The position numbers and the translations under genes were made by a program. Source: Ruminococcus sp. Zagget11 (GTDB lineage: Bacteria; Bacillota; Clostridia; Oscillospirales; Ruminococcaceae). Taken from it: DNA of 64,000 nucleotides. Location: NCBI GenBank assembly GCA_001941135.1, contig MSHL01000024.1, forward strand, positions 47,713 to 111,712. Reading direction: 5' to 3'. The notes under the pieces were generated by a model. That model saw only the letters and a program-made list of their open reading frames with translations, had not been told where the DNA came from and made no database searches. Every line of letters begins with the position of its first letter. The first letter of the stretch is position 1. Of the stretch, positions 42,888 to 64,000 are shown in pieces.

Positions 42888-43445
42888 TTAATCACATATC
42901 TTCCTTGCAAGGCTCAATATTAAGGCTGTTTCCTCCTTGGGGTCGGCACGGTCGGGCGTGGTGACCCATTCCAGAATAAGTCGGAAAGCACCATATGTCA
43001 CAAAAGAAATTATCCCCTGCATCTTCTCGTCGTTCTCTACGTGACGCAGCCTTTCGTTGAGTAAATCGATTATTTTGGGCATGGTAAATAATCTTTGCAC
43101 AAAATCGTTACCCGTACAGTTTTTCATCAGCATCAGTGCAGCATCGGAATTTTGCACCATATATTCAAGGCAGGCGGTAACTCTATGCTCCGTTTCCTCC
43201 CTGTCGTCGGGAGAAATATCCTTAAGGCGTTCTTCCAAGCCGTTGAGAAAATTATCCGTCATTTCATTAAGCACATCGTATTGGCTGCCGAAATGCTTGT
43301 AAAACGTACTGCGATTGATTTCCGCCAAGCTGCAAAGCTCTGTTATGGAAATATTGTGGATATTTTTCCTATGCATGAGCTGTGTAAAGGCACTGAAAAT
43401 TTTGGATTTGGTTACAAAAACCTTTTGTTCATACTGTGATCTCAT
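42888..43445 (-). CDS. TetR/AcrR family transcriptional regulator
   Basis: TKSKIFSAFTQLMHRKNIHNISITELCSLAEINRSTFYKHFGSQYDVL HTH. Confidence 0.9.
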   Translation of the reverse strand: MRSQYEQKVFVTKSKIFSAFTQLMHRKNIHNISITELCSLAEINRSTFYKHFGSQYDVLNEMTDNFLNGLEERLKDISPDDREETEHRVTACLEYMVQNSDAALMLMKNCTGNDFVQRLFTMPKIIDLLNERLRHVENDEKMQGIISFVTYGAFRLILEWVTTPDRADPKEETALILSLARKICD

Positions 43446-43552
43446 CGTTACGCCTCCACGTTCAACAAATAGGGCAAATTTGTCGGTTGCATAATCAACA
43501 AATGTCGATTATAATTATATCATATTTATCCGATAAAAACAAGGTGATTTTT

Positions 43553-45069
43553 GTGGAGTATTTTTGGTATTTTATCGCTGCCTTAGGCGCAGGAATAGGT
43601 ACGGGTTTGGCAGGGCTTTCCGCCGCAACGGTTATGGTACCGATTTTAATTGTTCTTTGTCCCTCATTCAGCGGGGAACATGGAGCTTATCAGGCGACAG
43701 CCATTGCATTGGCATCCGATATTCTCGGTTCTGCCGCAGCTACGTCAATCTATGCAAAAAATAAAAAGATTGATTTAAAGCATGGCTGGATACTCATGTC
43801 CTGTATTATTGCTTTAAGCGCTGTGGGCAGCTACGTGGCATATCTTGCGGGAAATGTTGTTTTGGGGGGGATTTACACTGTTTCTCACGTTCTGTATCGG
43901 CATACGCTTTCTGGTCAAACCCGATACGTCAAAATCGGGAGCGGACAGCGCTAATGTCAGACTGAATCTAAAGGAGATAATTATATCCGTCTTTTTCGGA
44001 CTTACCATCGGGTTCGGTACCGGCTTTGTGGGAACAGGCGGCGGTATGATGATGCTGGTCGTTTTTACTGCCTTTCTCGGATATGACCTTAAAACAGCCG
44101 TGGGTACAAGCACGTTTATCATGACCTTTACCGCGCTTATCGGCTTTATCAGTCACGCCGTTATTCATCCCGCAATAGTGTTTGAACGCACCGATGCACT
44201 TATAATTTGCATAGTTACGGCAACAGTATCGTCATTGATTTCCGCGCGCTTTGCCAACCGTGTGAATAACAAAACAGTCGGACGTGTTACGGGTGTTATT
44301 TTGGTTGTTTTAGGTGCTTCTATGATTTACCTTAATTATTTTCACGATGCGGAAATTCCCGAACCTGTTTCGGAAATGCTGCATACCTTGGGAATATTGG
44401 TCGTCTTTTTGGCTGCGGCAGTATGCTTGGCACTGCTTGGATTTAAGCCGCTGCACATTGACGGTGAGGTGCGCCGCAAGATTCTCCATACGATAGCCTT
44501 TCTTATAATACTGGTTATCGTCATTGCTTCTGAGCATTGGTACATACCCTCCCTGCTTTCTGTAATATTTGCTGCGGTTGTATATCCTATTTTACGGGCT
44601 TTTGAAAATAAAACATTCTATTCCGCCTTATTTCGGGAGCGTTCTCACGGAGAGGTCAGAAAAAGCCTTATTTTGTTGTTTGGAACGGCGGCAATTCTTA
44701 TTACACTGTTTTGGGGCATATTAGGCTCAGAGCTTACGGTTATTGCGGCAATTCTCACTTGGGGAATAGGCGATGAGGCTGCAGCGTTGGTGGGAAAGCG
44801 CTTTGGAAAGCATAAAATCGGTTGGCGCTTTGTGGATAACCGGAAAACATACGAGGGAAGCATAGCCATGCTTTGTATATCTTATTGTGCGGTTTTAATT
44901 TCTCTGGCGATAGGGGGGGATTGAAATACCGGCGGCGTTAATAACGGGATTTCTCGCTGCAATTGTCGCAACAATTACGGAAGCAGTTACTAAAGGCGGA
45001 TATGATACCGTGTCTGTCCCAAGCGTGACATCGGCTGTAATTTACATTTCCCTAATGATTTTACAATAG
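43553..45069 (+). pseudogene. TauE/SafE (TSUP) permease fused to polyprenol/phytol-kinase-like domain; interrupted by two G7-tract frameshifts
   Basis: TSUP repeats GAGIGTGLAGLSAATVMVPIL and GFGTGFVGTGGGMMMLVVF; kinase-like LTWGIGDEAAALVGKRFGKHKIGWRFVDNRKTYEGSIAM; reading continues across 43864-43870 and 44913-44919 after removing one G in each. Confidence 0.78.
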
Positions 45070-45246: not shown

Positions 45247-45601
45247 TGGTGGAGATGACGGGAGTCGAACCCGTGTCCGAAAACCTATCCACACGACTTT
45301 CTACGAGCGTAGTCTGTTATTTACATTCCCTCGCATAATTCCGAACAGACACGGCATTATGCTTGGTAGCCTGAAGTACATCATCGCGGCATAGGCAGTC
45401 CGAAATGACGTTCACCGTTAGTCGACGCCCGATGTCGGAGTCACGGTACTCTCCGAGCGGGCGAGCAGTGCGCTTAGGCAGCTGCTAATTCAAAATTATT
45501 GTTGTCGTCTAATTTTAAAACGAGTGCCGTTTAAAGAGAATGACACAATCCTCTGCCCGCTTATCCTGCTTCAAAATCCCCGTCGAAACCATTACATCCC
45601 C
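45247..45601 (-). ncRNA. ssrA: tmRNA (SsrA)
   Basis: 5' GGGGATGTAATGGTTTCGACGGGG; 3' GGGTTCGACTCCCGTCATCTCCACCA; tag ORF ending ...DDNNNFELAAA*; adjacent to smpB. Confidence 0.95.
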
Positions 45602-45650: not shown

Positions 45651-46124
45651 TTAATGATTATGCTCCTTGAATGCACGTTCAATGTCGCGCTGTGCGGCTT
45701 TTGCCGCCATGTCATCGCGCTTGTCATGAAGCTGCTTACCCTTGCAAAGACCAAGCTGCATTTTTACTCTTGAGTCTTTGAAGTAAAGCGAAATCGGTAT
45801 CAAGGTAAGTCCCGTTTGCTTGACAGTACCGTAAAGCTTGTTGATCTCACGCTTATGCAGCAGCAGTCTGCGGACGCGCATCGGGTCACGGTTAAAGATG
45901 TTTCCATGGTCATAAGGGGATATATGCATACCCTTTACCCACAGCTCTCCATCCTCAACGGTACACCAGCTGTCCTTTAGGTTTACACCGCCTTGTCTGA
46001 TTGCTTTTACCTCTGTACCTACAAGCTCAATTCCTGCCTCATAGGTTTCAAGTATAAAGTAATCGTGACGTGCCTTGCGATTTTCGGCGATAGTCTTAAA
46101 ATTGCTTTTCTTTCCCTCCGACAT
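45651..46124 (-). CDS. smpB: SsrA-binding protein SmpB
   Basis: [40 protein letters not shown]. Confidence 0.96.
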
Positions 46125-46249
46125 TGCAGACACTCCTCTCATTTTTGGCGGGTATACTACATTATATCACCGCAATTTACGATTGTCAAGAGAAATTTGT
46201 AATATTTTTTCGTTTATTTTCGATAATAAATACAGAAAGGAAGATGTTT

Positions 46250-59981: not shown

Positions 59982-60281
59982 ACATCATAATATTTAATTT
60001 GCAATTATTCAAACCAAAACACAAATAAATCAAACAAAAACACGGTTTTTCGCCTATTCAAAAGTAAATTTAGTTTGAATTGTGGGTTTAAATTTGAATA
60101 ATTAGCGGACAAATAAAGGACAGAAAAATGAAAAATAAAGGACAAAAAAACACACGCTACACACAGTAAATAAACGGTTTGAAAAGTTTGACCGTCATAA
60201 AAAAGGACAAACACAGCCGATTGAAAACACAACAGCCAGTAATTGACTGTTATAACCAAATTAAGAAAGGAAATTATTAAC

Positions 60282-60758
60282 ATGAAATATATTAACCAAA
60301 ACAACGATTTTTCGCACGAAATATTATTTTACAAGAACGTCAAAGACATGAACGAAGATATATTGACCCTATGTATGAAGTTTATGGATTTTGACAGCGG
60401 AGAATTAAAACCGACAAAAGACAGCTATGTTGAATTTTGCAATAAATGGCTTGCAATATCACAGGTTATTGATAGACTTGAATATATACAAGAACACCCT
60501 AATTACTATGTGTTTTTGATATATGACACAGGTATTAGATGTGTAACCGCTGACCTATACAGGGCAGATAAAACAATATCACAAGATATTGAATTTTTAC
60601 GCAATGAACAAGACTTTATTATGGAATTTAGAATTGACGCATTACACAGCAGTTTGCAACCGATATTAGATAACACATTCTTTGATGTTTTTGCAGAAAC
60701 TACAGGTATAGAGGGTGAAATACCGTTATTATGGGGTTTTGAAATTGTAACAGATTAA
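60282..60758 (+). CDS. Hypothetical protein in accessory segment
   Basis: 158-aa ORF with RBS aagaaagga upstream and strong terminator downstream. Confidence 0.6.
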   Translation: MKYINQNNDFSHEILFYKNVKDMNEDILTLCMKFMDFDSGELKPTKDSYVEFCNKWLAISQVIDRLEYIQEHPNYYVFLIYDTGIRCVTADLYRADKTISQDIEFLRNEQDFIMEFRIDALHSSLQPILDNTFFDVFAETTGIEGEIPLLWGFEIVTD

Positions 60759-60773
60759 AAGCACAAAGAAAAA

Positions 60774-60804
60774 AGGGTGTCGAAACTTTCGACACCCTTT
60801 TAAT
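60774..60804 (+). terminator. Terminator
   Basis: aaagggtgtcgaaactttcgacacccttttaat. Confidence 0.85.
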
Positions 60805-60969
60805 AGAAAAGGGTATAGCTGAAATGGTTATACCCTTATTTTTTACAAGTAGAATTTGAAAATAAAGGCATATTGCATAATGCAATTAACAATGAATTTT
60901 AATTTGCATAATGCACTTTTTAAATGAACATACCCCTATATATTATAATATAATAATTGAAATATAGGA

Positions 60970-61020
60970 TAATAATTGATATACTTGTAATTCAAGTAAT
61001 AATGTAAATAATTATAATAT
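60970..61020. repeat. Direct repeat copy 1 (51 bp, 85-bp period)
   Basis: taataattgatatacttgtaattcaagtaataatgtaaataattataatat. Confidence 0.9.
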
Positions 61021-61054
61021 TCTATATATAGGGTGTAATAATGTAAATATAGAG

Positions 61055-61105
61055 TAATAATTGATATACTTGTAATTCAAGTAATAATGTAAATAATTAT
61101 AATAT
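61055..61105. repeat. Direct repeat copy 2 (51 bp, identical to 60970-61020)
   Basis: Same 51-bp string; contains palindrome acttgTAATTcaagt. Confidence 0.9.
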
Positions 61106-61390
61106 GTTAATATAGGGTGTAATGTAAATATTTACAATAATATTCTATATATCATATTATTGTAATATTTAGATTATAATTCTATACACTAAAATTATAA
61201 TATTAACATATAAATAAAAATAGTTATACCACAAAATTTTGATTTTGTCAATAGTTTTTTAAAAATAATTGTAAATTTTTTATGAACAAAGTGCAGAATA
61301 TGTACAAGACAGCAGCAGAATACCGACTTTGATTGAAAACAATAATTGTAAACCGTAAAGGAGGTGGGGTGACTTTTCGGAACGTGACCT

Positions 61391-61552
61391 TAACCGCTGA
61401 CCGTATAAGGCAACATACACGCATTGTAACAGCTTGTAATGCAATAGGTAATATAAACACCCTACTAACAGCAACCACGCCATAGCACGCACGACAGAGG
61501 GCAACACAGACAACAGCAGGGGCAGAACATGGATAAGACATCAACTGCATAA
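61391..61552. repeat. 162-bp direct repeat, copy 1
   Basis: taaccgctgaccgtataaggcaacatacacgc...ggataagacatcaactgcataa; near-identical to 61852-62013. Confidence 0.92.
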
Positions 61553-61851
61553 CGTGTAAAGGCTACAGAATACCGACTTTGGTCTAAAAATGCCATAGTA
61601 CAATGGGAATTTTGACAGCGGAAAAGAAAAAAGGTAAAACTCGACAACATAAGCCTTGAAAAACACCGTTGTATTATGAGGAAAATTTGAAACCTATGCA
61701 TAGAACGTCAAATTAGAAAAGTTGTCAAAGAAGTAGCGTTGTATAAAACAAAGGGAATGGTCAAGGTAATATAAACACCCTACCGTCAACATAGGTGTTT
61801 GAATATGAACGTAGAGTTAAAGCAAAACATCAAAAACATAGCAATACACAT

Positions 61852-62013
61852 TAACCGCTGACCGTATAAGACAACAGACACGCATTGTAACAGCTTGTAA
61901 CGCAGTAGGTAATATAAACACCCTACTAACAGCAACCACGCCATAGCACGCACGACAGAGGGCAACACAGACAACAGCAGGGGCAGAACATGGATAAGAC
62001 ATCAACTGCATAA
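61852..62013. repeat. 162-bp direct repeat, copy 2
   Basis: Same length; only a few substitutions relative to 61391-61552. Confidence 0.92.
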
Positions 62014-62078
62014 AGGAGCTGGGGTCGGAATTTTCGACGTAACCTAACTAACAGCAACCACACCATAGCGATACACAT

Positions 62079-62129
62079 TAACCGCTCGCCATACAAGACA
62101 ACAGATACGCATTGTAACAGCTTGTAATT
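62079..62129. repeat. Partial third copy of the repeat (first ~51 bp), truncated
   Basis: taaccgctcgccatacaagacaacagatacgcattgtaacagcttgtaat. Confidence 0.8.
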
Positions 62130-62486
62130 AAGTGACCCCCTCACAAAAAGTTAGCACACCTGATTTGTAATAAAAGAACTTGAAAAAACAGTTTTGCACC
62201 CGTAATAATTTAATAACATAAACGCTAAATTATGGGGGTATAATACATTTTGGGAATAATTGTTGTTGCCTGAAAAGTGTTTAGGTGTTCATCATGCACA
62301 TAACGGAAAATGTAAAATTTTTATTAACAGCCGAAAAGGGCGAAAAAACGTTAGTAAAAAAGGTTGAAAACGATTGATAACAAAACGGTTTTGTGGTATA
62401 ATTGAGCTAATAGAAACCCTTTATTTTGTGCTTGTAAAGGGTCAATCATTATAAAAGCAACACCAATAAAAAGCGAGGTGAAAAGA

Positions 62487-62779
62487 GTGATAAAACTTGC
62501 AAGAGAAGAACGGGAAACAACTATTACATTTTTGGATTGTGACAATTTTGCAGATGTGTATAGTTGTGTACCAAGACACTTGAAAAATTGCAGGAGCTTG
62601 CAAAAAAATATCCTAATGATGTTAAACTTGTAGAGCAAGATAATTTTGGGGAAACATACAGACTACCCGAAAAGTGGGTTATAAACTTCAAGAAACCCGT
62701 TAATACATGGGATAGCTTGACAGATGAACAAAAGGAAAAAAGAAAAGCTATTGCAAAAGAAAATTTGAAAAGGTCTTAA
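62487..62779 (+). pseudogene. Small accessory protein split by frameshift in an A5 tract
   Basis: GTG-start frame IKLAREERETTITFLDCDNFADVYSCVPRHLK joins KLQELAKKYPNDVKLVEQDNFGETYRLPEKWVINFKKP if one A is added; RBS gaggtg upstream. Confidence 0.6.
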
Positions 62780-63169
62780 AGGGCGAAAAGGGCGAAAAAT
62801 CAAACACAATGCAACAATTTTCACAAAAATAATGATATAAGAATGAATTTATTTTTATGATTTTACGAGGTTTTAATTGATAATTATTTGCACATATTGC
62901 ACAACTATAACAGCGAAATTTGGTTAATTATGCACATATCATATGAACTATGCAAAATGACATATTTAATATTAAATAAGTGAAAACAACTATATCGAAA
63001 TAACAGCGAAAAAACGTGTAATTAAGTTAGAAAATAATAAGCAATTGTGAACTATATATTAACAATAAGTAAACAATCGAATCGTTCATTGACAAATAAA
63101 AACACTTGTGTTATTATTATAAGCGTGTAGTAGTGTTGTGTTTGAACGTCCTGTTAGGAGGTTGAAAAC

Positions 63170-63591
63170 ATGGCAACAATTAGAAAACGTAATGACTCGT
63201 ATCAAATCAGAGTTAGTACAGGTTATAACGCAAAAGGTAAACAAGTTGTAAGGTCTACAACATGGAAACCAAAGGAGGGAATGACTGAAAGACAAATCAA
63301 AAAAGAGTTAAACAAGCAGGCACAATTGTTTGAAGAACAATGCAAGCAGGGTGAAATTTGCAGTAGTGAAAAATTTCAAGTAATCGGTGAAATGTGGTTG
63401 AAAGACTACGCAAAAACGCATTTGAAAAAACTACATACAGTAATAATATTCAACTATCAAAAATTGTGTTTGCTGAACTGGGCAATTGTCGCATAAACAA
63501 AATTCAAGCCTATGACATACAAACGTTTATTGACTCTTTGAGTGAAGAGGGAGCTTATAAGAAAACGGGTAAACCCTATGCAACTTTGAAG
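63170..63591 (+). pseudogene. Tyrosine recombinase/integrase N-terminal part, frameshifted and truncated by IS insertion
   Basis: MATIRKRNDSYQIRVSTGYNAKGKQVVRSTTWKPKEG Arm-binding domain; core-binding region continues in the 63394 frame (YSNNIQLSKIVFAELGNCRINKIQAYDIQTFIDSL); sequence ends at the IS end. Confidence 0.8.
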
Positions 63592-64000
63592 TGCTCCCCT
63601 TTTGTTAGACAATGTGGTATAATATAAATATACCAATTAAAAGTCTAATGAAAGGGGATATTTTTATGCCTAAAGGAAAGCCAAACAAAAGGTATACACC
63701 AGAATTTAAAATCATGGTTGTAGAAACAATGCAAAAGGAAAAACTGAGCTACAAAGAAATAGAGAGAAGATTTGAATTGCCGCACAGACGAGCCGCCGAT
63801 TGGGAACGAATCTACCTTGAAGAAGGAAAAGAAGGACTCTATGTTGAAAGAAGAGGACGAAAGTCAACGGGACGCCCTCCAAAACTGAAGAAAGAGGTGG
63901 AGGAAGACCTCATCGCAGAAATGCAGCGACTTCGTGCGGAAAATGACTACCTAAAAAAATTGAATGCCTTGGTTGCCGAGAGGGTACGGCAAGAGAAAAA
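63592..64000 (+). mobile_element. IS3-family insertion sequence, left end (continues beyond window)
   Basis: Terminal TGCTCCCCTTTTGTTAGACA followed by an OrfA-like ORF. Confidence 0.75.
63666..64000 (+). CDS. IS3-family transposase OrfA (partial)
   Basis: MPKGKPNKRYTPEFKIMVVETMQKEKLSYKEIERRFELPHRRAADWERIYLEEGKEGLYVERRGRKSTGRPPK...AEMQRLRAENDYLKKLNALVAERVRQEK (HTH + leucine zipper); open at window end. Confidence 0.88.
   Translation, partial: MPKGKPNKRYTPEFKIMVVETMQKEKLSYKEIERRFELPHRRAADWERIYLEEGKEGLYVERRGRKSTGRPPKLKKEVEEDLIAEMQRLRAENDYLKKLNALVAERVRQEK

Follow-up and report, generated by a model that had tools for sequence, protein, structure and literature searches.

A TSUP permease and a kinase in a single protein

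The window, which is the whole 64 kb stretch of DNA analysed here, carries a gene that joins a TSUP (TauE/SafE) permease to a SEC59/VTE5-like kinase domain, and this TSUP–kinase fusion is a real architecture that is found in several families. Nine relatives of 503–545 amino acids encode both domains in a single uninterrupted frame (loci L006, L007, L073 and L105–L110), and their hosts are two congeners, members of three other families of the order and one Erysipelotrichaceae MAG. The congener fusions were obtained by a whole-genome search of relatives (a 541-codon frame in G003 and a 512-codon frame in G017), and the Erysipelotrichaceae fusion, L073, is an intact protein of 503 amino acids found in a scan of named genomes. 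Six further fusions, in three further families (G342, G405, G388, G411, G361 and G107), emerged when 394 genomes of the order were searched with the kinase profile, as did four standalone kinases. The initial annotation of this DNA had proposed a search for the same fusion in other genomes, and had held that the fusion would fall if the orthologues were always separate genes. The search yields nine intact single-frame copies, and the orthologues are not always separate, though those of G015 are.

The window copy itself is not in one frame, as might be expected if two neighbouring genes had been joined artificially by an error of assembly or gene calling. This explanation is refuted for the architecture by the nine intact relatives: one frame runs across the junction in nine independent genomes, and we give the artefact almost no credence. 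The architecture is independent of the state of the window copy. It joins two known kinds of protein in a way that is not found in the literature searched; we found no open-access paper on this TSUP–kinase fusion, although InterPro-type architecture tables may already show it. The earlier reading as a permease–kinase fusion therefore holds for the architecture, on the strength of the nine orthologues with an uninterrupted frame, the single clade of fused TSUPs and the conserved kinase motifs, and its functional labels have no part in that support.

Reading frames and G7 tracts in the window copy

In the window, the gene is spread over three frames of the forward strand that are split exactly at two G7 tracts. 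Frame 1 (43553–43954) encodes the N-terminal part of the TSUP permease; its start aligns with those of the relatives, with a GTG start codon at 43553 and AAGGTGA immediately 5′ of it. Frame 2 (43845–44924) contains the second half of the TSUP permease and continues through a linking helix into the greater part of the kinase domain. Frame 3 (44919–45069) supplies the final 50 or so residues (ITEAVTKGGYDTVSVPS...ILQ, stop codon TAG) and is matched by the kinase profile with E = 5e-7. Frame 2 had been singled out initially as joining the second TauE half to a kinase-like domain, and we indeed find 359 amino acids without a stop, a stop-free length with a chance probability of about 3e-10, at 51–54% identity to the single-frame fusions of G003 and G017. 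The TSUP/kinase junction of the window copy is in one frame, and both +1 shifts lie elsewhere in the gene. The two domains are connected by a hydrophobic segment (44349–44448, forward strand) that corresponds to helix 1 of the standalone kinases, as delimited from the alignment to these kinases, the hydropathy of L073 and the domain bounds. The SEC59/VTE5-like kinase domain follows on the same strand (44449–45066), with the motifs RRKILH, GE..S, WGxGDEAAA..G..FGKHK, K.YEGS and E...YDTV.

The first +1 frame change is at the G7 tract 43864–43870 (forward strand), where the relatives encode Val-Leu-Gly-Gly-Phe in a single frame, and the second, from frame 2 to frame 3, is at the G7 tract 44913–44919 (forward strand). 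These are the only G or C runs of at least seven nucleotides in the whole 64 kb, and the four C6 runs of the window are all inside long open frames. Dropping one G from each tract, for the analysis only, gives 504 codons with zero stops. The uninterrupted copies of this protein in nine relatives show that the repair suggested for the C-terminal end is correct. As written, the sequence yields no intact protein, unless the tract lengths are erroneous or variable, and the assembled window copy may lack function.

Either homopolymer errors or recent mutations may explain the frameshifts. G7 tracts coincide with breaks in other genes of the MAG too, which suggests that such tracts are hypermutable or subject to homopolymer errors. 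It is a serious possibility, although we lean away from it, that this particular copy has recently become a pseudogene, or that it is phase-variable and switched via its two G tracts. A G7 tract is present at both frame changes, and two such tracts within 1.5 kb are improbable by chance (about 3e-4, calculated post hoc), but seven nucleotides are short for phase variation and the tracts are absent from the relatives. The related L074 copy is likewise broken, yet the window gene runs for 504 codons without a further stop, and, with G7 breaks present in other, unrelated genes of the MAG, a homopolymer assembly error is equally likely. With the window copy frameshifted twice and L074 broken, the function may perhaps be dispensable in some hosts.

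The L074 fusion (725–2224), from a second Erysipelotrichaceae MAG, has two frame changes and a short deletion that break it at sites other than those in the window. Elsewhere in G000, the MAG of the window, G7 frame breaks are seen in genes that were named by eye as AraC-type (L027), HPt (L035), adenine-deaminase-like (L042) and sodium-symporter-like (L043, at about position 1501), and L050 contains a G12 tract.

The permease domain

Against Pfam TauE (PF01925; TC 2.A.102), for which the cut-off is 32.6 bits, the two halves of the window permease score 43.9 bits (frame 1, profile positions 1–98) and 65.6 bits (positions 98–237), and intact relatives reach 108.9 and 111.6 bits over positions 1–237. 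The domain thus resembles the TSUP/TauE–SafE family in both halves and in its approximately eight helices; the fusion differs from this family in its added C-terminal membrane enzyme domain and in forming a clade of its own. TSUP substrates are diverse and mostly uncharacterised, and the substrate of this permease cannot be read off the sequence. A PDB sequence search with the TSUP domain found no solved relative. Matches to Pfam TctB, DUF2946 and similar models were sub-threshold and were set aside. On contig 41 of G000, two adjacent half-size TSUP frames with an overlapping junction (L003, 1115–1851) are perhaps a natural two-gene permease.

The kinase domain

In an alignment of 16 kinase sequences the residues R, K, H, W, G, D, G, H, K and G are invariant, and the motifs R-K-x-x-H, WGxGD and GxH...K..EG are invariant or nearly so. 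Both the basic clamp and the acidic motifs of SEC59/VTE5/DGK1-type kinases are present, and the conserved motifs are placed on the cytosolic side by the hydropathy and positive-inside loops of L073. The read-through window protein scores 304.5 bits against the kinase HMM, a model that includes frame 2 among its 16 rows. SEC59, VTE5, the FolK phytol kinase, PfPolK and DGK1 share the RKxxH, WGxGD, GxH...K..EG and E...DT motifs with the fusion, as well as the multi-helix organization with a cytosolic active face. The kinase of the fusion differs from all of these in sitting behind a TSUP permease and in scoring below all Pfam and NCBIfam thresholds. PfPolK is a prenol kinase with a demonstrated CTP requirement, and its modelled Arg-Lys-His ‘charged clamp’ (PMC10849223) has the same spacing as the R-K-x-x-H triad of the fusion. 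On the basis of these motifs the domain presumably belongs to the SEC59/VTE5-like family, and it is presumably a CTP-dependent kinase of a lipid alcohol of the prenol type.

The kinase profile also reaches CdsA-like proteins of the cytidylyltransferase superfamily via GKH and KKTVEG motifs. With Pfam CTP_transf_1, one standalone relative reaches 21.8 against a cut-off of 24 and the fused copies have no match; none of the Pfam and NCBIfam models is reached by the fused kinase. A PDB sequence search with the kinase profile gave no match. The fusion does not match PF01219 (DgkA-type undecaprenol/diacylglycerol kinase), and a scan of the host genome of the window for PF01219 found none. Searched with the kinase profile, viral contigs contain no relative, phages none and plasmids one insignificant match. 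A predicted structure of the L073 fusion, from a six-row alignment, had a pLDDT of 36 and was set aside for the purpose of a fold search.

History of the fusion

In the TSUP tree, the ten fused TSUPs form one clade (100/100) that is separate from the genus's own standalone TSUPs. The TSUP of G015, the sole standalone member of this clade in the tree, is nested with those of G003, G017 and G411. The G015 kinase is found in the matching kinase sub-clade and is encoded on a different contig from the G015 TSUP. The single TSUP clade and these placements of the G015 TSUP and kinase are most simply explained by one fusion and a subsequent fission, and a single origin with later fission in G015 appears likeliest; taken by itself, the kinase tree would also be compatible with multiple fusion events. 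The window protein is 73–74% identical to those of G342 and G405, which belong to another family, and 70% identical to L073, compared with 54–56% for the congeners G003 and G017. Since identity is higher to other families than to congeners, the gene has probably moved between lineages. A standalone TSUP of G388 (L152, 1498–2412, contig 66), absent from the TSUP tree, resembles the fused clade; this genome also has a fusion.

A conserved TetR/operator arrangement

A TetR-family regulator of 185 amino acids, above the cut-offs of Pfam TetR_N and TetR_C_8, is encoded on the reverse strand at 42888–43445. Homologues with 48–57% identity are divergent from the fusion in L073, L105, L106 and L108, and L074 by reading has a divergent TetR-type gene too. 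An operator-like palindrome, TGTCGGTTGCATAATCAACA (43481–43500), is kept between TetR and the fusion in six loci: the intergenic TGTYGSTTGCAWAAWCRACA is present in the window, L073, L074, L105, L106 and L108 beside a TATAAT-like box, and its outer arms are palindromic in L105 and L106. The exact motif has a single site in each of six genomes; as the search pattern was derived from these same loci, the informative part of this count is the absence of other exact sites. G388 has an additional operator-like site, with one mismatch, directly before its standalone TSUP (L152). From the six-way alignment, a candidate promoter on the forward strand (TTGCAT–17 nt–TATAAT, 43487–43515) overlaps the operator-like site; its −35 box is weak (3/6 match) and a consensus promoter scan does not list it. 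The G003/G411 and G361/G107 fusions have neither the TetR gene nor the operator, and the contig of G017 is short. The arrangement of TetR gene and operator is kept across distant hosts, and we infer from it that the TetR protein would control the fusion promoter.

Standalone kinases and their transporter-like partners

Outside the fusions, most members of this kinase family in the class are encoded by a gene of their own. The strong matches to the kinase profile in 391 genomes of the class are standalone and mostly of about 220–300 amino acids, except for two more distant proteins of 444–448 amino acids without a TSUP part. A CDF-like gene is directly downstream of the kinase gene or overlaps it, on the same strand, for 15 of the 17 standalone kinases sampled (for example L133 3601–4242, L118 8551–9171 and L134 6586–7209, with 12 other loci), and all three CDF-like proteins tested score above the cut-off of Pfam Cation_efflux. 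The standalone kinases without a CDF-like gene, those of G015 and G185, are both in the kinase group that contains the fusions. The kinase thus nearly always has a transporter-like partner, CDF-like or TSUP, and this near-constant partner is the strongest argument for a functional link between kinase and transporter.

In the alignment, helix 2 of the CDF-like proteins carries the motif ADF(I/V/L)RR(S/T)xEL. CDF metal exporters usually have His or Asp where these proteins have Arg. The CDF-like partners, which are without the usual His/Asp ligands, possibly transport something other than metal ions. A MarR gene is upstream in four standalone-kinase loci. The resulting MarR–kinase–CDF-like cluster, in related genomes of the class, shares with the fusion locus a homologous kinase, a local regulator of the small-molecule type and a transporter-like membrane partner; it differs in that the genes are separate, the partner is CDF-like and not TSUP, and the regulator is MarR and not TetR.

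The two longer proteins represent a different extended architecture: in L142 (1572–2918) and L143 (1184–2518) a kinase-like domain opens the protein of 444–448 amino acids, L142 has no Pfam match, and the neighbouring gene, judged by eye, resembles that of a BtaA-type (betaine lipid) enzyme.

Possible function

The reading that we tentatively prefer, at somewhat less than an even chance, is that of a regulated membrane module in which the kinase would phosphorylate a lipophilic alcohol and the TSUP domain would move the product or a linked anion. In this reading, a full-length TSUP secondary transporter (approximately eight helices) would be followed by a full-length polytopic kinase (approximately 7–8 helices) with a cytosolic active site. 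At the inner face, the kinase domain would transfer phosphate from CTP to a lipophilic membrane alcohol (prenol, phytol or polyprenol type). The TSUP domain, the relatives of which carry sulfonate-type organic anions, would then carry either the anionic product or a linked anion across the membrane. Until the compound is present, a ligand-responsive TetR repressor would keep the promoter off. This model builds on the domains, the one-frame relatives, the TSUP clade, the catalytic-type motifs, the TetR/operator arrangement and the kinase–transporter pairing, and from these we infer the use of CTP, the substrate class, the direction of transport, the coupling and the function of TetR. The initial annotation proposed that an exporter is coupled to lipid-alcohol phosphorylation; this is plausible, and the other transporter-like gene that habitually accompanies standalone kinases lends it indirect support.

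The fusion could instead serve co-expression or co-localization only, with the TSUP domain exporting a small sulfur or organic anion, the kinase acting in isoprenoid or lipid salvage and no substrate in common. The two domains are full-length and separable, and they live apart in G015 (after fission, on different contigs), but one fusion clade persists across several families; and while the G388 standalone TSUP paralogue is under the same type of operator, the transporter-like neighbour kept by 15 of the 17 standalone kinases favours a functional link. We regard the absence of a common substrate as rather unlikely. Recycling of a polyprenyl-phosphate carrier, in which the kinase would act on undecaprenol and the TSUP or CDF-like partner would flip the lipid phosphate, appears improbable to us. 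It has a precedent in the DUF368 and DedA translocases, which occur fused to the C55-PP enzymes PAP2 or BacA (PMC9876793). These DUF368–PAP2, DUF368–BacA and DedA–PAP2 fusions likewise combine a membrane translocase with a membrane enzyme acting on lipid carrier phosphates; they differ from the TSUP fusion in their transporter and enzyme families and in having a phosphatase where the latter has a kinase. The absence of PF01219 from all eight fusion hosts of the order that were examined supports carrier recycling weakly, but PF01219 is found in only 93/197 of the whole order and its absence follows families. This order-wide control also weakens the idea of the fusion as a simple replacement for DgkA, and the Erysipelotrichaceae fusion host (the L073 genome) has DgkA. 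A housekeeping function would not be expected of a fusion that is rare and apparently under ligand control, and TSUP proteins are not known to flip lipids. A slightly longer shot still is a kinase–flippase, in which polyprenyl or prenyl phosphate would be made at the cytosolic face and translocated by the TSUP domain; TSUP and the CDF-like proteins without a metal site would then be unrecognized lipid-phosphate translocases, interchanged beside the same kinase.

Both TSUP permeases and bacterial kinases of the SEC59 type occur widely and are little understood. The stable fusion, together with the CDF-like pairing of the same kinase, points to a likely functional partner for each. Finding the lipid alcohol may reveal the cargo of these transporters, and the conserved TetR operator offers a route to the inducer.

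Surroundings of the gene

Downstream of the fusion, on the opposite strand, is a tmRNA gene (45247–45601) with the tag DNNNFELAAA, adjoined by an SmpB-like frame (45651–46142). At 60001–64000 the G+C content falls to 0.32–0.34 with a strong AT skew, so that this end differs from the remaining window.
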